DNA of 35,075 bases from positions 1 to 35,075 of IMG/VR virus record IMGVR_UViG_3300025301_000050; one strand, written 5' to 3'. The notes below the pieces were generated by a model, which was given only the letters and a program-made list of their open reading frames with translations, did not search any database and was not told where the DNA came from. Origin of the DNA: a virus. The position numbers and the translations under genes are program-made. This document shows positions 14,354-23,712 of the stretch, one piece after another (the first letter of the stretch is position 1; every line of letters starts with the position of its first letter).

Positions 14354-15859
14354 ATGTCAGTACGACCACCTACTTCACAAAGAAAAACAGGACAATTTAG
14401 TTCTAGGGCTGAAAAAATAAAAGCTCTCAAAGAACGATCAAGGAAATTAAATCCTTTATCTCCTACCAGAAAAAAAATAATGCAGCAGATAAAAAAGTTA
14501 GAGGCAGCATCTAAACCAGTGCCTAAAAAATTTACATATACTGGAAAAAAAATAGGAGATAAGAAGACAAAAACAGGACAATTTAAAGAAAAAACTCCTA
14601 AAGTTAAAACTCCTCTCTTTAAATTAAAGGATGATCCAAGTAAAAGATTAAGAGAAAAAAGATTAGCTGAAGAAAAAGCTAACAGAGAAAAAGTTAGATT
14701 AGCTAAAGGAAGAAAGGCTTCTGAGAAATTACAAGATATTCCTCCTATTAAAAAAGTAGACAGAGGTAAACCCGGAAGAACTATAGGAAAGCAAGTAGGA
14801 AAAAGTAGAACAGCAGTAAAGGGAAAAGTTGATCCATTAGCTGTTAAAGATAAGTCTATGACTAAAAAGAAAATATCACCTGTAGATAAATCTCCTAAAA
14901 CCTATGGAGGTAAATTTACTACTAAAACTAAACCAAAAATAGTAGCTGCTAAAAAGAAACCTAAGAATAGATTAGAGATACTTAAAGAGAGAAGTAAAAC
15001 AACATCTACTCAAAAAACAGATTATATAAATCCTAGAGATCCAAAAAGACTAGAAAAAATACAAAAAAGAAAATTAGGTAGAACAGCAGTAAGTGATATG
15101 CTGAAGGCAAGGCAAGCAAAACCTACTAGTAAAGATATTACGTCTGGTAGAGATGCAGAGGCAAAGAGAAAGGCAGCTAAAGCTAAACAACAAGCAAGTC
15201 GTGCTAAAACACGTACTGGAACATTTAAAGATCTTTATAAAGGTCAAAAAGATAAAAGACCTGCTACAGCAGTATCTAAAGCTAGAACATTTAAAGATCC
15301 TTATAAAGATCAGAAAGATAGAAAACTTGGTACAGCAGTACCTGTAAGGAAAAAGGTAGTTAAAAAGGCAGTTAAACAGAAAGTTCCTTCTAAATTAATA
15401 ACAACACCTAAAACTAAAACATTTACAGATCCTTATAAAGATCAGAAAGATAGAAAACTTGGTACAGCAGTACCTGTTAAAACACCTGTAAGTAAAGTAG
15501 TACCAAAAAAACCTATGGGTAAGGCTATGTCAGATAGACCTGAAGGCCGGAGTCAAAGAAAAGATTACGACCACTTTCTTAAAAGTAGAGGTGGTATAGA
15601 AGGATTTCAGTTTAATTTATTTGGTAAAAATAAAACAGTTGCAGAAGCAAGTAAAGCAGCTAAAGAAGCTTATGATGAAGAACAACGGGATCGTAAAAAA
15701 ATATCACAACAGGATTTCTATCAGTACGGAGAAGGCCGAAGATCTCAACTTAAAAAAGGTGGTATGGTTAAAAGAAATAAAGGTGGGGCTGTAAGAGGCG
15801 TAGGTCAGGCTCTTAGAGGATTTGGTAATAATTCTAGATATTCTAATAAAATGTATTAG
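14354..15859 (+). CDS. Lys-rich repeat protein, 501 aa
   Basis: The protein is low-complexity, Lys/Arg/Thr-rich, and almost certainly disordered over its first 400 residues, without recognisable catalytic motifs. A unit T-F-K-D-P-Y-K-D-Q-K-D-R-K-L-G-T-A-V-P occurs twice nearly exactly and once more diverged (about residues 289-375). The C terminus (about 465-501) is different: K-K-G-G-M-V-K-R-N-K-G-G, then a Gly-rich stretch ending Y-S-N-K-M-Y, a motif I recall at the ends of several marine phage virion proteins. It may be packaged with DNA or bind RNA or DNA in the head; that is inference. GGGAGG precedes the ATG. Confidence 0.85.
   Translation: MSVRPPTSQRKTGQFSSRAEKIKALKERSRKLNPLSPTRKKIMQQIKKLEAASKPVPKKFTYTGKKIGDKKTKTGQFKEKTPKVKTPLFKLKDDPSKRLREKRLAEEKANREKVRLAKGRKASEKLQDIPPIKKVDRGKPGRTIGKQVGKSRTAVKGKVDPLAVKDKSMTKKKISPVDKSPKTYGGKFTTKTKPKIVAAKKKPKNRLEILKERSKTTSTQKTDYINPRDPKRLEKIQKRKLGRTAVSDMLKARQAKPTSKDITSGRDAEAKRKAAKAKQQASRAKTRTGTFKDLYKGQKDKRPATAVSKARTFKDPYKDQKDRKLGTAVPVRKKVVKKAVKQKVPSKLITTPKTKTFTDPYKDQKDRKLGTAVPVKTPVSKVVPKKPMGKAMSDRPEGRSQRKDYDHFLKSRGGIEGFQFNLFGKNKTVAEASKAAKEAYDEEQRDRKKISQQDFYQYGEGRRSQLKKGGMVKRNKGGAVRGVGQALRGFGNNSRYSNKMY
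15296..15477 (+). repeat. Two exact 50-bp direct repeats
   Basis: Bases 15296-15345 and 15428-15477 are identical over 50 bp, starting GATCCTTATAAAG, and lie 132 bp apart (44 codons, in frame) inside the Lys-rich gene. Seven further bases match just to the left after one mismatch. A third, diverged copy is around 15221-15275. Identity at the DNA level implies recent duplication or ongoing recombination, and repeat number could change in frame. Confidence 0.85.
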
Positions 15860-17376: not shown

Positions 17377-17699
17377 TGGCTACACAAAGGAATGCTCTAG
17401 CTCAATGTGATATCTGTGGTTTTGTATATCCACATAGAGTAATGAGATTAAATAGTTATGGATTAGTGGTATGTCCACAGGATTTTGAAGGTCAATTTGA
17501 TTTAAAAAATAACCCTCAAAATAAAGTACCAAGAGTAAAAGATAACCCTGCTATTAGAAATCCTAGACCTGATACAGGTGGTAGAGGAACTACATGGGAT
17601 AAGACTGTTACATGGATAACAGTAAATCCTACAACTCTGGCAGAAACAAGACATACAACACAGTATGATGATGCTAACAAAAGTTGGGATGCAATATGA
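17376..17699 (+). CDS. Zinc-ribbon-like phage protein, 107 aa
   Basis: The N-terminal part reads C-D-I-C-G-F-V-Y-P with the next cysteine at 33 in V-V-C-P-Q-D-F-E, giving C11, C14 and C33, with H20 or D35 as possible further ligands. This layout is common in short proteins of phage structural modules. The rest is Pro- and Asn-rich, including G-G-R-G-T-T-W and a final T-T-Q-Y-D-D-A. It may help attach tail parts. Start and stop are coupled to both neighbours (TAATG and ATGA). Confidence 0.8.
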   Translation: MATQRNALAQCDICGFVYPHRVMRLNSYGLVVCPQDFEGQFDLKNNPQNKVPRVKDNPAIRNPRPDTGGRGTTWDKTVTWITVNPTTLAETRHTTQYDDANKSWDAI

Positions 17700-20122
17700 C
17701 AGACTTAACAGGAAAATTAATATCAGATACCTATAAGCAGTTACTACAGATTAATGCCAGTACAACAAATACTGGAGTAAAAACTTCAATAACAAACGTA
17801 CAATCAGGGGATGGAACAGCTAGTGCTTTAAATATTGGGACATCGGCAGTACAAGTTTCAGGTACTTTTAGAGTACATGGACATGCTAGTGTAAGTGGAA
17901 GTTTACTTGTAAGAGATAAAGTTTGTGCAAGTTCTTTTTTTGGAGATGGTTCTAATCTTACTGGTATTACAGCTTCTGTTGGTGGAGATATATCAGTCAG
18001 TCATGCTATAATAGGTGGAACCTTATCTGTAATAGGAAATGCAGTATTTGAATCTAATGTAACTGTAAGTGGTACATTTGATGTGGCAGGTAATACAAGT
18101 ATAGGAGGAACATTAACAGCTACTGGTGCTACTCAATTAGGTTCTACCGTAACGGTAGTAGGTAAGGGAGTATTTGAGGGAGATGTTTCGGTTAGTGGAG
18201 ATCTTGATGTAGCTACTAATGCTTCAGTAGGTGGAACATTGGCAGTAACAGGAGCTAGTACATTTACAGCTAAGTCAGAATTTAAGAATGATGTATCAGT
18301 AAGTGGAAGACTTGATGTAGCTACTTCTGCTTGTATTGGAGGTATTGCCAAGTTTAGAGATGATGTATCTGTAAGTGGAAATCTTAATGTAGTCGGAAAT
18401 GTAACAGCTAATAAGTTTTATGGAGATGGCTCTGAACTAACAAATGTTGAAGCAGAACTAGGGATAGCTACAAATATTTCAGTATCGGGATTTATACATG
18501 CAGGTGGAAGTGTATCAGTATCTGGACCATTTAATGTTGTAGGAGCAGCTACATTTCAAAGTGGAGCTTCTGTAAGTAGTTTTGTAAATGTAAATGGTAC
18601 TTTAACTGTAGCAGGAGCAACTTCTCTAGCATCTACTCTTAGTGTAGGAAGTGCAGCTAACTTTCTAAGTACAGTTACAATAGCAAGTCATGCTAGTATT
18701 GGAGGTAATTTAAGTGTAGGAGGAGCTACTAATCTAGGATCTACTGTTACTGTAGCTGGTGCAGCTATTTTTGAAGACAGTGTATCAGTTAGTGGTAATG
18801 TGGATATGGCAGGGAATGTCTCTGTAGGAGGAACTGCACAGATAACTGGTAATGCAAACTTCGATGGAGATGTATCTGTATCTGGTGATGTATCTATAGG
18901 TACTAATCTCTTTGTGGGTGGTACTGTAACGATTGTAGGTAATACAACTATGACAGGAGATCTAGGTGTAGGAGGTGCTGTAAGAGTTAGTACAAATGCT
19001 TCTGTAGGTGGTACTCTGGATGTAGGTGGTAATGTTTCTATAGGAGGAAATGTAACTGTTAAGGGAGATGTACATGTAAGTAGTAAAGTATGTGCTTCTG
19101 CTTTCTTTGGAGATGGTTCTAATATTACAAATGTTCCTATTGATATAACAGGAAATATATCTGTTAATAATGCTACAATTGGTGGAAATTTATTTGTAGG
19201 AGGAACAGTAACGGTAGCAGGAATTGGTATATTTGAAACTGATGTGTCTATTTCGGGAGATTTAGATGTAGCTACTAATGCTTCCATAGGTGGTACTTTT
19301 ACTGCCACAGGGGCTGCTCAATTAGGATCTACAGTAACAGTTGTAGGTAAGGCTGTATTTGAAGGTGATGTATCAGTTAGTGGAGATATAGATGTGGCTA
19401 CAAATGCATCTATAGGAGGTACTCTAACAGCTACAGGAGCTACTCAGTTAGGTTCAACAGTTACAGTAGTTGGTATTGCTATATTTGAAAGTGATGTTTC
19501 TGTATCTGGTGATCTTGATGTAGCTACTAATGTTTCAGTAGGAGGTACTTTCCAAGCAACAGGGAATGCAAACTTTGATGGTGATGTTTCTGTAAGTGGA
19601 GATGTTTCTATAGGAACTAATCTTTATGTTGGTGGTACAGTTACGATTGTAGGTAATACAACTCTAACAGGTAACTTTGCAGTAGGTGGTACTACTACTA
19701 TAACAGGTAATTCAGGATTTTTAGGTACAATTAGAGTAAGTGGTAATACTTCTCTTGAAGGTCAGTTACAACTAACTGAGTCAGCAGCAGCAGCCGTACA
19801 TACAACGGCTATTAATGGTATAACTTCTGTTTCTCTTAATTTTGGTACAGCACAAAACTTTCTGACTACGGTTACAGCAGCACATACAATGGCTAGACCT
19901 ACTAATGCTAGAGTAGGTCAAGTAGGTAGTGTCTTCTTTGTACAGTCAGGAGGAAGTGGGACTCTAGCTTGGAATGCTGCTTGGAAGTTTCCAGCAGCTA
20001 CAGATCCAACCTTTTCTACTTCTAATGGAGCCGTAGATAGACTTGATTATATTGTTGCTTCTATTTCAAGTGACAATACAGGTGAAAATATACAAGCAAT
20101 TTTATCACAGGAATATGGATAA
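17696..20122 (+). CDS. Repetitive tail fibre protein
   Basis: From the ATG at 17696 the protein is 808 aa and is built of imperfect 20-25 residue units with the pattern x-V-S-V-S-G-x-x-x-V-x-x-x-x-S-V-G-G-T-L, suggesting a long beta-helix or trimeric fibre. Three F-x-G-D-G-S-x-L-T segments (near 84, 242 and 472) interrupt it, a motif frequent in marine phage fibres. The last about 110 residues form a distinct C-terminal domain with G-Q-V-G-S-V-F-F-V-Q-S-G-G and N-A-A-W-K-F-P, related to the end of the fibre at 24068. The likely role is host binding. The ATGA overlap fixes the start. Confidence 0.9.
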   Translation: MTDLTGKLISDTYKQLLQINASTTNTGVKTSITNVQSGDGTASALNIGTSAVQVSGTFRVHGHASVSGSLLVRDKVCASSFFGDGSNLTGITASVGGDISVSHAIIGGTLSVIGNAVFESNVTVSGTFDVAGNTSIGGTLTATGATQLGSTVTVVGKGVFEGDVSVSGDLDVATNASVGGTLAVTGASTFTAKSEFKNDVSVSGRLDVATSACIGGIAKFRDDVSVSGNLNVVGNVTANKFYGDGSELTNVEAELGIATNISVSGFIHAGGSVSVSGPFNVVGAATFQSGASVSSFVNVNGTLTVAGATSLASTLSVGSAANFLSTVTIASHASIGGNLSVGGATNLGSTVTVAGAAIFEDSVSVSGNVDMAGNVSVGGTAQITGNANFDGDVSVSGDVSIGTNLFVGGTVTIVGNTTMTGDLGVGGAVRVSTNASVGGTLDVGGNVSIGGNVTVKGDVHVSSKVCASAFFGDGSNITNVPIDITGNISVNNATIGGNLFVGGTVTVAGIGIFETDVSISGDLDVATNASIGGTFTATGAAQLGSTVTVVGKAVFEGDVSVSGDIDVATNASIGGTLTATGATQLGSTVTVVGIAIFESDVSVSGDLDVATNVSVGGTFQATGNANFDGDVSVSGDVSIGTNLYVGGTVTIVGNTTLTGNFAVGGTTTITGNSGFLGTIRVSGNTSLEGQLQLTESAAAAVHTTAINGITSVSLNFGTAQNFLTTVTAAHTMARPTNARVGQVGSVFFVQSGGSGTLAWNAAWKFPAATDPTFSTSNGAVDRLDYIVASISSDNTGENIQAILSQEYG
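18848..19663 (+). repeat. Repeats in the fibre gene conserved at protein level
   Basis: The 34-codon blocks at 18848-18949 and 19562-19663 encode proteins identical except for one F/Y change, yet twelve codons differ silently. A roughly 50-residue unit with T-A-T-G-A-T-Q-L-G-S-T-V-T-V-V-G occurs three times, at about 18105, 19280 and 19410. The DNA thus diverged while the protein sequence was kept. Confidence 0.75.
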
Positions 20123-21291
20123 TGGTTTTTCAAAATAATTTATTAATGGGTGCTGCTTCAACAACAGGAGGAACGACTGGTGGTCAACTTTGGACATGGG
20201 GCATGGGTTTTAATGGCCGGTTAGCAGATGGAACTACAACTAATAAGTCTTCCCCTGTTCAGGTTGGTTCTGATGAAGATTGGGTAAGTATTTCTACACA
20301 TGGTTCTAATGGTATTGGGGGTGCTACGAGAACAGATGGTACTATTTGGGCATGGGGTAGAGGTCGTTATGGTGGATTGGGGCAGGGATCTGTAGAAAAC
20401 AAATCCTCTCCCACACAAATTGGTTCTGATACGGATTGGTTCCAAATACAGCAAGGGAATGATACTAGTTATGGTTTAAAGACTGACGGAACATTATATT
20501 TTTGTGGAAGAAATGATAAGGGACAAGGCGCACAGGGTGATTCGGAGAATGTTTATTCTTCCATGACTCAAATCGGTTCCTTAACTGATTGGAAGGGAAG
20601 TGTAACGCAAGACGATATAAACGGTGGCTTTAATACTATGGCAATCGCCACTAATAGTGCATTTTTTATTAAATCGGATGGTACATTATGGACATGGGGT
20701 AATAACGCAACAGGACAACTAGGTCAAGGTGATGAAACTTCTCGTTCTTCACCTGTTCAAATTGGCTCAGATACAGACTGGAAATGGGTGAGTGCAACGT
20801 CTTATCATGTATTTGCAGAACGAACTGATGGTTCTATCTGGGGATGGGGGTATAATAAAGACGGTCAATTAGGTCTTGGAACTTCTGGATCTTTAAACAA
20901 TAAAAGTTCCCCTGTACAACTAGGATCAATCACGGATTATAAACATTTTGGTGCTGGACATCTCACTACTACTCTCATAAAGGCTGACGGAACTCTTTGG
21001 CTATGTGGAGAAAATAGTTATGGCCAATTAGGTCTTGGAGACACAACAGACCGTTCTTCACCTGTTCAGGTTGGCTCTGATACGGATTGGCATAGATGTT
21101 TGCCGGGAGAATTCATGAATGGTGCTACTAAAACAGACGGTTCTATCTGGGTATGGGGGGGTAATGATTCTGGAAATTTAGGTATTGGAGACACAACAAA
21201 CCGTTCTTCACCTGTTCAGATTGGTTCAGATACGGATTGGGGGAATAATAGGGGTGGTAGTGCTTATTCCAGTAATATTAGAGGACTTTGA
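20122..21291 (+). CDS. Seven-repeat RCC1-like beta-propeller
   Basis: After a short Gly/Thr-rich N terminus the 389-aa protein holds seven repeats of about 50 residues. Each has a L-W-x-W-G or I-W-x-W-G strand, a G-Q-L-G-x-G turn and a S-S-P-V-Q-I-G-S-D-T-D-W signature. Repeats 3 and 6 have C-G in place of W-G. Seven is the number that closes an RCC1-type propeller. No signal peptide or catalytic domain is attached. Sitting between a fibre gene and a glycan-enzyme gene suggests a virion-tip binding module or a host-surface partner. In eukaryotes RCC1 proteins are exchange factors; that function should not be assumed here. Start by TAATG overlap. Confidence 0.9.
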   Translation: MVFQNNLLMGAASTTGGTTGGQLWTWGMGFNGRLADGTTTNKSSPVQVGSDEDWVSISTHGSNGIGGATRTDGTIWAWGRGRYGGLGQGSVENKSSPTQIGSDTDWFQIQQGNDTSYGLKTDGTLYFCGRNDKGQGAQGDSENVYSSMTQIGSLTDWKGSVTQDDINGGFNTMAIATNSAFFIKSDGTLWTWGNNATGQLGQGDETSRSSPVQIGSDTDWKWVSATSYHVFAERTDGSIWGWGYNKDGQLGLGTSGSLNNKSSPVQLGSITDYKHFGAGHLTTTLIKADGTLWLCGENSYGQLGLGDTTDRSSPVQVGSDTDWHRCLPGEFMNGATKTDGSIWVWGGNDSGNLGIGDTTNRSSPVQIGSDTDWGNNRGGSAYSSNIRGL

Positions 21292-21297
21292 TAACAT

Positions 21298-23022
21298 ATG
21301 TATTTTTTAACAGGCTTTCCTCGTTCTGGTTCGACACTTTTAAAGTGTTTACTGAATCAACGCCCTGATACTTATGCAAGTAATACCAGTAATCTGTCTG
21401 ATATGATAGAAGCATTTGATCATTTGTGGAAAACAAATTCAGCAAGTCCAGTAGGATCAACTGATGGTTTAAGTCAAGAAGAGTGTATTAAACTCCTACA
21501 GCATCAACGATATGCTAATATAGATAAACCTATAATTTTTGATAAATCTAGAGGATGGCCGAATATTATTGAGTTAATGAAAAAGGTACAGGATACAATA
21601 AAGATTGTAGCAACAGTACGTCCTGTTAATGAATGTATAGCTTCAGCAATGAAGATATTTAATCCCGATACTCTTCAAGGAAGTAAGGTAGATACTACAT
21701 TAAAAATATGGTTAGAAACTATACTTGATACTTATACAAGCATAAGAATAAGTTATGAAAAATATCCCGATAACTTTTTGTTAATTGAGTATTCTGATTT
21801 AGTTAGCAACACTCAAGATCAAATGGATCGTATTTCTGATTTTATCGGTGTAAAGAAATTTGATCACGATCTTAATAATGTTCCTCCTTCTAATGAAGAA
21901 GATAGGATTTGGGGAATAAAAGATCTTCACAAAGTTCGATCAAAAGTACAGGCAGAGAAATATAATGCCCAAGAACTTATCGGTGATCATCTTTGGAAGC
22001 AGTATGAAGGTGGTGAGTTTTGGAACGATAAACCAGAGCCAAAAAGAGATAATTTATTAGACTTACAACTAGAGGCGGGGTTACGTGGAGATTTTAAAAA
22101 AGGTTGGGAAATTGCCCAACAATTGCAAAAGAAACAGCCAGACAATCACAGGGCTAATTTTAATCGTGGATGGTATTTGCTTCGTCAGGGGAAATTATTT
22201 GAAGGTCATAACCTTCTTGATTATGGAAGAATGAATAATGTTTTCGGTAATCGTCACATAGGAAGTGCTAAACCTATATGGAATGGTGAAGAAGGAACGG
22301 TTCTTTTAAATTTAGAAGGAGGTCTTGGTGATCAGATTAACAGTTACCGTTGGGCTTTTGATTTACAGGATCGTGGAAATCGTGTGGTAATTTCCTGTTC
22401 TTCAGAGATTGGTTCTATCTTTGCAAAAGATTTTATTGTTGTTGAAAGTAAGGCTGCTTGTAGTGTGTATCATGATTACTGGATTCCTTCGATGTCGGCT
22501 ACTGTTCCTTTTAAATATGAGTATAAAGACTTAAAGGGAACTCCATATATTAAACGTACTGCTGATCCTATACCCGGAAGAATAGGTGTGAGATGGAGTG
22601 GTAATCCACAGTTTGAACACGAACAGCACAGATTTTTCCCTCCTGACTTAATGTTTGATGCTGTAAAAGGACATAATTGTATTTCTTTGCAAAGAGATAA
22701 AGATGCAGATTTAAGACCAACATGGATGAAACAAGCTCCTTTACAAAACTGGGAGATGACTAGAACAGCAATTAGTGAGTGTGAATTAGTAATAAGTTCG
22801 TGTACAAGTATAGCTCATCTTTCTGCTGCAATGGGAATAGAAACGTGGATCGTAGTTCCTGTTTTATCTTATTATCTGTGGGCATTACCGGGTAATAAAT
22901 CACCCTATTATGATAGTGTTACGTTATTTAGACAGAAGGAGTATGGGTCTTGGGAACATCCATTTTCCGAAATTAAGGAGAAGTTAAAATGCAATACGCA
23001 TATGTTGAAAATGGCAGCATAG
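21298..23022 (+). CDS. Sulfotransferase-TPR-glycosyltransferase fusion
   Basis: 574 aa in three parts. Residues 1-215 are a sulfotransferase: the PAPS-binding loop G-F-P-R-S-G-S-T-L-L (6-15), R108 and S116 in the 3'-phosphate motif, and a C-terminal Y-S-D-L-V plus I-S-D-F-I-G-V. Residues 250-315 read as TPR helices (R-G-D-F-K-K-G-W, D-N-H-R-A-N-F-N-R-G-W). Residues 330-560 resemble a GT9/heptosyltransferase-type enzyme: E-G-G-L-G-D (340-345), G-V-R-W-S-G-N-P (430-437) and S-S-C-T-S-I-A-H-L (500-508), with Cys where D-T is usual in GT9. It may add and sulfate sugars on host or virion glycans. The acceptor is unknown. Confidence 0.85.
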   Translation: MYFLTGFPRSGSTLLKCLLNQRPDTYASNTSNLSDMIEAFDHLWKTNSASPVGSTDGLSQEECIKLLQHQRYANIDKPIIFDKSRGWPNIIELMKKVQDTIKIVATVRPVNECIASAMKIFNPDTLQGSKVDTTLKIWLETILDTYTSIRISYEKYPDNFLLIEYSDLVSNTQDQMDRISDFIGVKKFDHDLNNVPPSNEEDRIWGIKDLHKVRSKVQAEKYNAQELIGDHLWKQYEGGEFWNDKPEPKRDNLLDLQLEAGLRGDFKKGWEIAQQLQKKQPDNHRANFNRGWYLLRQGKLFEGHNLLDYGRMNNVFGNRHIGSAKPIWNGEEGTVLLNLEGGLGDQINSYRWAFDLQDRGNRVVISCSSEIGSIFAKDFIVVESKAACSVYHDYWIPSMSATVPFKYEYKDLKGTPYIKRTADPIPGRIGVRWSGNPQFEHEQHRFFPPDLMFDAVKGHNCISLQRDKDADLRPTWMKQAPLQNWEMTRTAISECELVISSCTSIAHLSAAMGIETWIVVPVLSYYLWALPGNKSPYYDSVTLFRQKEYGSWEHPFSEIKEKLKCNTHMLKMAA

Positions 23023-23225
23023 GTTATATTGGAGAATTATCAAAAATATTTAAAGAAAGTAATAAGTTTCTAAAAACTCTTGAATGGTTTCCAGCAACTA
23101 TAATTAAGGAATCCCCAGTTACTAGGAAAGCTAAAGAGAATGAAGTAACGTATATAGTAGAAACTTCAGATAAAGTTATTATTATTCAAAGAGTTTGTAA
23201 ACAGGAGAAGACGAATGATCTATAA
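22989..23225 (+). CDS. Hypothetical protein, 78 aa
   Basis: This small protein begins M-Q-Y-A-Y-V-E-N-G-S-I-G-Y and has an L-E-W-F-P-A-T-I element, like short proteins that accompany tail fibre assembly genes in marine phages. A strong AAGGAG eight bases before the ATG supports a start 34 bases inside the end of the fusion gene. It probably works with the protein at 23215, whose start it overlaps by 11 bases. Function uncertain. Confidence 0.75.
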   Translation: MQYAYVENGSIGYIGELSKIFKESNKFLKTLEWFPATIIKESPVTRKAKENEVTYIVETSDKVIIIQRVCKQEKTNDL

Positions 23226-23712
23226 ATATAAAACTACCCGTATATATCCGGGTAAGGGATGGAGGGACGATGAGGGGGTTCAGTATCCTAAAAACTGGAA
23301 TATCTGGTCTGCTGATGAAAAAGCTGAGAGGGGTGTAACAGAGATTAAGGAAGATACTCCACCAGATGGCAGGTTATATGATTGGGAAATGGATGATAAT
23401 GGAAAAGTCACATCTACTGCTAAGTCTATGTCCTTTCTTAAAGCAGACATAAAAAAACAAATTGATAGTAATCAACTTACACGTTTAAGTGAAAGTGATT
23501 GGGCTATTATTCGTAAGGCTGATAAAGGAACGGCTGTTCCAACAAACATTCAGACATGGCGTGATGCAATTCGTACTAAAGCTACAGAGATGGAAACTGC
23601 TGTTAATGCCTGTTCTAGTGTAGATGAAATAGCTGATTTATGGGTTGTACATAACGATGATGGTTCTGTTAAATCAGGTATTCTTTACGTATGGCCTGAA
23701 TTGGAGGAGTAA
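23215..23712 (+). CDS. Tail fibre assembly-like protein
   Basis: The 165-aa protein has a charged Tyr/Trp-rich N-terminal half and a C-terminal segment with L-S-E-S-D-W-A-I-I-R-K-A-D-K-G and V-P-T-N-I-Q-T-W-R-D-A-I-R (about residues 91-122). This is the typical end of tail-fibre assembly or chaperone proteins, which help fold or attach fibres. It sits between fibre genes, as expected. The region after the motif (D-L-W-V-V-H-N-D-D-G) differs from the usual form. The identity of the fibre it serves is not known. Confidence 0.78.
   Translation: MIYKYKTTRIYPGKGWRDDEGVQYPKNWNIWSADEKAERGVTEIKEDTPPDGRLYDWEMDDNGKVTSTAKSMSFLKADIKKQIDSNQLTRLSESDWAIIRKADKGTAVPTNIQTWRDAIRTKATEMETAVNACSSVDEIADLWVVHNDDGSVKSGILYVWPELEE

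Follow-up and report, generated by a model that had tools for sequence, protein, structure and literature searches.

A Phage-Encoded Sulfotransferase-TPR-Glycosyltransferase Fusion Paired with an RCC1-Repeat Gene: A Candidate Enzyme for Decoration of the Phage's Own Fibre

Overview and Genomic Context

The analyzed window, a 35,075-bp stretch of viral DNA (IMG/VR record IMGVR_UViG_3300025301_000050), encodes a 574-aa fusion of a PAPS sulfotransferase, TPR-like helices, and a glycosyltransferase (GT). In related phages, the fusion gene almost always stands directly after a gene for an RCC1-repeat propeller, which suggests that many uncultured aquatic phages decorate their own host-recognition protein. 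We consider the fusion to be a dedicated writer that would glycosylate and sulfate the phage's own RCC1 fibre protein, with a probability of roughly 0.6. This reading rests on the domain anatomy, the motifs, purifying selection, the RCC1 pairing, the loss of the sulfotransferase domain in some lineages, and cofactor genes in relatives.

The source was recognized as a tailed phage by matches to TerL, portal, major head, and ejection proteins; its portal is 39-43% identical to those of the pelagiphages HTVC027P/HTVC023P and the roseophages CRP-901/902. The fusion ORF starts with ATG and occupies positions 21298-23022 of the plus strand, which also carries the neighbouring genes named here. Its placement among fibre genes, as the original prediction had it, was confirmed. 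The RCC1 gene (20122-21291), absent from that prediction and recognized here by Pfam, lies immediately upstream. It is preceded by a tail-fibre-like gene (17684-20122; an 812-aa ORF with a bactofilin-like part and internal repeats), and a tail-fibre-assembly-like gene (23215-23712; weak PHROG 4912 match, E 0.001) directly follows the fusion. The equivalent of the latter gene in a related locus, L056, was identified as Phage_tail_APC (E 3.8e-17). The internal direct repeats of the 17684-20122 gene measure about 370 and 261 bp, with 70-75% identity. A 501-aa gene of the structural region (14354-15859) had no Pfam or PHROG match.

Domain Organization of the Fusion Protein

The sulfotransferase-TPR-glycosyltransferase architecture proposed originally for positions 21298-23022 was borne out by Pfam, AlphaFold2, and Foldseek, and the quoted motifs (PRSGSTLL, R108...S116, EGGLGD, and SSCTSIAH) were all found in the 574-aa protein. 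The predicted enzyme consists of a PAPS sulfotransferase domain (residues 1-245; 21298-22032), two TPR-like helical hairpins (residues 253-310; 22054-22227), and a GT-B glycosyltransferase domain (residues about 320-574; 22255-23019). In the AlphaFold2 model (mean pLDDT 85), two confident domains are connected by a flexible join at about residues 246-249. A profile search part by part, as had been proposed, placed the sulfotransferase above the Pfam cut-off, and the GT part, having no library match, was recognized by its fold.

The sulfotransferase domain was assigned from Pfam (PF13469/PF00685), PDB profile matches, and its fold. Sulfotransfer_3 matched residues 3-186 with an E value of 4.8e-17 and 63.4 bits (curated Pfam cut-off, 27 bits), the family profile retrieved PDB sulfotransferases at E 1e-14 to 1e-12, and the closest solved fold was TPST1/2 (Foldseek E 6.5e-8). 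The domain contains a 5'-PSB motif, P8-R-S-G-S-T13 (21319-21336), and a 3'-PB motif, R108...S116 (21619-21645). The domain junction, G-G-E-F-W-N-D-K-P-E-P (residues 238-248; 22009-22041), was delimited by alignment of fusions and is nearly invariant across those of the window's group. The TPR part, four helices in the AlphaFold2 model, forms two hairpins without a long array, and the family profile matched TPR structures. No match of its own was obtained for the GT part in Pfam, PHROG, or NCBIfam, and the GT-domain profile retrieved only TPR proteins among PDB sequences. Foldseek matches of the GT part ranged from E 3e-5 to 7e-4 and included SPY (3e-5), TibC (2e-4), the GT9 structure 3tov (5e-4), and OGT. 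Alignment of the fusions defined two motifs in this domain, E340-G-G-L-G-D345 (22315-22332) and S501-C-T-S-I-A-H507 (22798-22818).

Conservation, Distribution, and History of the Fusion

Among 28 aligned fusions, K83, R108, E340, G342, G344, and D345 were invariant, and R9, S10, G11, S12, T13, S116, S501, C502, T503, A506, and H507 were at least 90% conserved. The residues P8, R9, S12, R108, and S116 were also invariant in 14 divergent phage sulfotransferases. RCC1-linked GTs have SCT or SCS at the position where the unlinked GT of L042 has VDT. Pairwise dN/dS values between fusions were 0.07-0.15, which indicates strong purifying selection on the enzyme and, together with the conserved motifs, rules out a degenerate protein.

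Relatives in IMG/VR numbered 43 by single-sequence scan and 430 by profile scan. Full-length fusions with 41-71% identity occur in dozens of contigs, and 61 of 85 lineages (GT domains, 90% dereplication) are fused. Both objections anticipated in the original prediction thus fell away: the catalytic residues are conserved in relatives, and an assembly chimera is ruled out by the recurrence of the full-length fusion in dozens of contigs that are independent of each other. The survey of viral and bacterial genomes that had been suggested there found the fusion to be recurrent in the viral contigs of IMG/VR; the bacterial genome collection yielded one match, L044, a Patescibacteria contig that carries the gene at its end. 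The full fusion was found in 0 of 379 other Patescibacteria genomes and an ST-GT fusion in 0 of 72,556 plasmid records, which argues against a bacterial origin; in phyla besides Patescibacteria, the search covered close relatives of the fusion. The L044 gene (1646-5695 of the locus; DCXN01000003.1, bin UBA2135) encodes a 1350-aa chain of sulfotransferase, TPR-GT, methyltransferase, TPR, and OGT/N-glucosyltransferase-like parts. It is located downstream of an RCC1 gene on a contig with bacterial genes and may represent a prophage, a bacterial copy, or a mis-join.

In the GT tree, every fused protein fell into one clade, within which GT-only proteins were nested at L062, at L034, and as a five-row clade. 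The simplest history is therefore a single gain of the sulfotransferase domain followed by at least three losses. In L163, the sulfotransferase and GT are neighbouring ORFs, i.e., a split gene. Judged from these sequences, RCC1 has the GT lineage as its conserved partner, and since the sulfotransferase was repeatedly lost and the GT retained, the sugar is probably the core modification and sulfate an optional second one.

Pairing with the RCC1 Gene

In the fusion-seeded loci, RCC1 was located directly upstream on the same strand for 60 of 62 fusion genes (median gap, 0 bp), and the RCC1-seeded search recovered the same pair (36 of 37 fusions directly after RCC1). After dereplication at 90%, RCC1 was immediately upstream of the fusion in 57 of 58 lineages, two additional fusions being situated at a contig end; the corresponding number for GT-only genes was 18 of 24. 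Seen from the RCC1 side, a sulfotransferase or GT gene was directly adjacent in 56 of 77 loci and at most four genes away in 6 more. Genes were called on the loci with a simple greedy procedure. Both search sets comprise the best-ranked matches by similarity, so these adjacency rates hold for this family rather than for all phage RCC1 genes. Reference phages, a source independent of IMG/VR, gave a consistent picture: RCC1 genes of this type were present in 15 of 50,697 records, and three of the four distinct GT carriers had one nearby (P about 8e-11). Clostridioides and Brevibacillus phages have their RCC1 genes in records without a GT match; hence, the pairing belongs to this family and not to RCC1 generally.

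In the window, the RCC1 stop codon (21289-21291) is separated from the fusion ATG (21298) by 6 bp. A Shine-Dalgarno-like GAGGA, read from the sequence, lies within the 3' end of the RCC1 gene (21281-21285, plus strand), and this arrangement suggests co-translation of the two genes. A promoter scan remained below shuffle expectation. Distances of fusion and RCC1 proteins were correlated (Mantel-type, rho 0.38, p 0.001), less strongly than those of the sulfotransferase and GT parts (0.60), by a measure that does not separate coevolution from shared ancestry. In the open-access literature searched, no report was found of this pairing with a phage RCC1 gene or of both writers fused in one chain.

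The RCC1 Protein as a Putative Fibre Component

The 389-aa product of the RCC1 gene (20122-21291; Pfam RCC1, E 7.6e-53) is the proposed acceptor and fibre or adhesin protein. Its AlphaFold2 model (pLDDT 84.7, pTM 0.85) has the predicted seven-bladed RCC1 repeat fold, with Foldseek matches to UVR8/RCC1 down to E 1e-33, and begins with a disordered, low-confidence tail (residues 1-18; 20122-20175). The N-terminus of relatives reads M-P-N-x-R-x-G-M-M-G-A-A-G or similar; its style resembles that of glycine-rich fibre proteins, and the tail is a possible virion anchor. The RCC1 proteins of L116 and L082 carry IPT/TIG or Ig-like domains as fusions. In comparison with the sister phage L039, RCC1 is 73-80% identical (dN/dS 0.59), while the preceding fibre gene is about 100% and the sulfotransferase 88-99% identical. 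In L062, where the sulfotransferase domain is missing, most downstream genes are 93-99% identical to those of the window, against 39% for the RCC1 protein. Hypervariability, the fibre-locus setting, and the domain fusions are marks of an exposed recognition protein, and we infer from the gene position and the fusions that RCC1 is present in virions. When RCC1 was considered for conserved acceptor sites, S-S-P-V-Q repeats were noted; because bacterial RCC1 proteins commonly have repeats of this kind, they are not claimed as acceptor sites.

Cofactor Genes in Related Loci

An APS kinase gene (PF01583, E 2.9e-17; PAPSS1, E 4.9e-12) was detected in 23 loci (not dereplicated). Every one of these contains RCC1, and 19 contain the sulfotransferase. 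The product of APS kinase, PAPS, is the sulfotransferase donor. Ten loci (not dereplicated) contain an HldE-type heptose-1-phosphate adenylyltransferase (TIGR02199, E 1e-48), whose score of 164.9 bits falls below the curated equivalog cut-off of 181.5. ADP-heptose, the HldE product, is the donor for GT9 heptosyltransferases and TibC. By their sequence, the HldE-like neighbours probably supply ADP-heptose, which by analogy suggests this compound as the donor of the GT domain. APS kinase, HldE, and GT25 genes were absent from the 35-kb window fragment; consequently, this phage would need PAPS and sugar from the host, or genes located beyond the fragment.

Comparison with Known Systems

Heptosyltransferase TibC modifies an adhesin, and genes for such enzymes often adjoin the gene of their autotransporter (PMC4358343). 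The phage GT shares with TibC/AAH (the BAHT family) a GT-B fold match and the ADP-heptose precedent (PMC4358343). The TibC/AAH genes adjoin that of the modified adhesin; the phage-borne fusion adjoins RCC1, for which the adhesin role and the modification are proposed, so that its acceptor would be the RCC1 propeller. TibC/AAH proteins have an N-terminal beta-barrel, where the fusion has TPR helices and a sulfotransferase, and a four-cysteine iron finger, whereas the phage GT alignment contains no four conserved cysteines. Membership in BAHT is ruled out because the barrel and the iron finger are missing. In Caulobacter FlmG, the TPR part binds flagellin and the GT glycosylates it (PMC7591256). 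The fusion has the same layout, with TPR N-terminal to GT-B, and is likened to FlmG by domain layout only; FlmG acts in the cytoplasm on a structural protein of the cell surface (PMC7591256), and a comparable action is proposed for the phage enzyme. FlmG, in contrast to the phage fusion, has no sulfotransferase, and its acceptor is flagellin. Bacterial proteins annotated as 'tetratricopeptide repeat-containing glycosyltransferase family protein' are homologous over fusion residues 250-570 (26-28% identity, E to 1e-23) and were without a sulfotransferase fusion in the 72,556 plasmid records.

TPST1/2, the nearest solved fold to the sulfotransferase domain, is also significant by profile, but the TPST catalytic Glu (G-E-E-T-R segment) is replaced by T30 in a gapless alignment to TPST1. 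The absence of this residue leaves tyrosine sulfation unsupported, and identity with TPST was rejected. Standalone cyanophage sulfotransferases (S-SKS1, S-SCSM1, and S-SRM01; PHROG 27463) are homologous to the sulfotransferase domain but have no GT fusion, and S-SRM01 is the only one of the three in which the gene comes after RCC1. Pairs of an adhesin and a dedicated glycosyltransferase are an established arrangement, but the original description as a new surface-modification system can reasonably be kept for the combination.

Proposed Mechanism and Alternative Explanations

The best reading by analogy is that the phage pair would work like AIDA-I/AAH, TibA/TibC, and flagellin/FlmG. During infection, newly made RCC1 protein would be docked inside the cell by the TPR hairpins, by analogy with FlmG (PMC7591256), and the GT-B domain would transfer a sugar to it, most likely heptose from ADP-heptose if TibC and GT9 enzymes are a guide. 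The sulfotransferase, in which the cofactor motifs are present, would then move sulfate from PAPS to that sugar or to a hydroxyl of the RCC1 protein, and the modified propeller would be built into the virion fibre. We infer the docking, the acceptor, the sugar, and the order of steps; the benefit may lie in host binding, stability, or shielding.

The original prediction had left two targets side by side, the phage's own fibre and host surface glycans closed to other phages. The former is favoured, since the fusion is nearly inseparable from the adjacent RCC1 gene, and receptor closure is the less likely. If the enzyme modified host LPS or capsule during infection and blocked superinfection, RCC1 would be a mere fibre neighbour. 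The typical target of GT9 heptosyltransferases is indeed LPS, and related loci carry extra sugar genes, such as GT25 (26 loci, not dereplicated) and a dTDP-glucose dehydratase-like gene. Yet a near-obligate order of RCC1 and enzyme across diverse phages is unexpected for an LPS modifier, two isolates also place a TPR-GT beside RCC1, and TPR and GT-B proteins of known function (FlmG, OGT, and SPY) act on proteins, so we regard this explanation as unlikely. RCC1 propellers are frequent protein-protein scaffolds, and further fibre proteins adjoin the pair; RCC1 might accordingly be the activator or substrate adaptor of an enzyme whose acceptor is some other protein of the virion, such as the adjacent fibre. 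This appears quite unlikely, as RCC1 is hypervariable and the enzyme conserved, which is more in keeping with an exposed recognition protein than with an enzyme subunit, and RCC1 copies outnumber enzyme copies in many loci.

Least probable is that an accessory metabolic gene acting on a small molecule has hitch-hiked in a variable fibre locus. The S-SKS1 and S-SCSM1 sulfotransferases have no annotated RCC1 neighbour, and phage sulfotransferases have been classed as auxiliary metabolic genes or as having an unclear function (PMC10580990, PMC12285232). Such hitch-hiking is at odds with the direct adjacency of the two genes on one strand in almost all lineages, with the several fusion partners that occupy a single position, and with strong purifying selection. 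Under the self-decoration reading, the RCC1 pairing gives at least part of the phage sulfotransferases a concrete, testable role, namely the placement of sulfate and sugar on a recognition protein. If this is true, virions bear sulfated glycoprotein fibres, and phage host range has a chemical layer invisible to sequence-based prediction. Direct tests are possible with the cultured phages S-SRM01 and BUCT-ZZ01, the latter for the glycosylation part only.

Modular Relatives of the Locus

In cultured cyanophage S-SRM01, the functions are split into RCC1-TPR.GT and RCC1-sulfotransferase pairs, each enzyme gene following RCC1 immediately, and the RCC1 genes adjoin long-tail-fibre genes. The cultured phage BUCT-ZZ01 (host Synechococcus elongatus PCC 7942) has the order tail fibre, hypothetical gene, RCC1, and GT-methyltransferase. 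Its enzyme gene (L094:6920-8635), right after RCC1, encodes a TPR-GT with a methyltransferase-like C-terminus, for which the match is weak. In both S-SRM01 and marine virus AG-345-E08, the enzymes have separate genes, between which RCC1 genes and 2OG oxygenases are interspersed. In AG-345-E08 (L096:7398-20653), three RCC1 genes alternate with several 2OG-Fe(II) oxygenases, a TPR-GT, a sulfotransferase, and a GT25-like gene, and by its gene content this island looks like a hydroxylation-glycosylation-sulfation set.

A broader reading, which we put forward tentatively as possible, is that aquatic tailed phages possess a modular island for the post-translational modification of the RCC1 propeller fibres that they themselves encode. 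Writers that can be combined with one another (glycosyltransferase, sulfotransferase, methyltransferase, 2OG-Fe(II) hydroxylase, and GT25), together with suppliers of PAPS and ADP-heptose, would build sulfated glycoprotein adhesins on the virion. Host recognition would then be tuned by the choice of enzymes as well as by the RCC1 sequence.

Several further gene arrangements were observed. At a contig edge (L043:1-897), a sulfotransferase C-terminus with the GGEFWNDKPEP end is joined to a 2OG-Fe(II) oxygenase (PF13759) in place of a GT. Three loci (L138:10649-11488, L084:8309-9136, and L010:10053-10826) encode a fusion of APS-kinase-like and NMN-adenylyltransferase-like parts (GRWQPWHxGH ... 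SATxIR). This fusion may be a new PAPS-synthetase-like protein, although another identity is also conceivable. In L108 (1310-9330), seven complete tandem RCC1 genes with a partial one upstream are followed by an APS kinase gene, and the array includes a glycine-rich fibre gene with a similar N-terminus.
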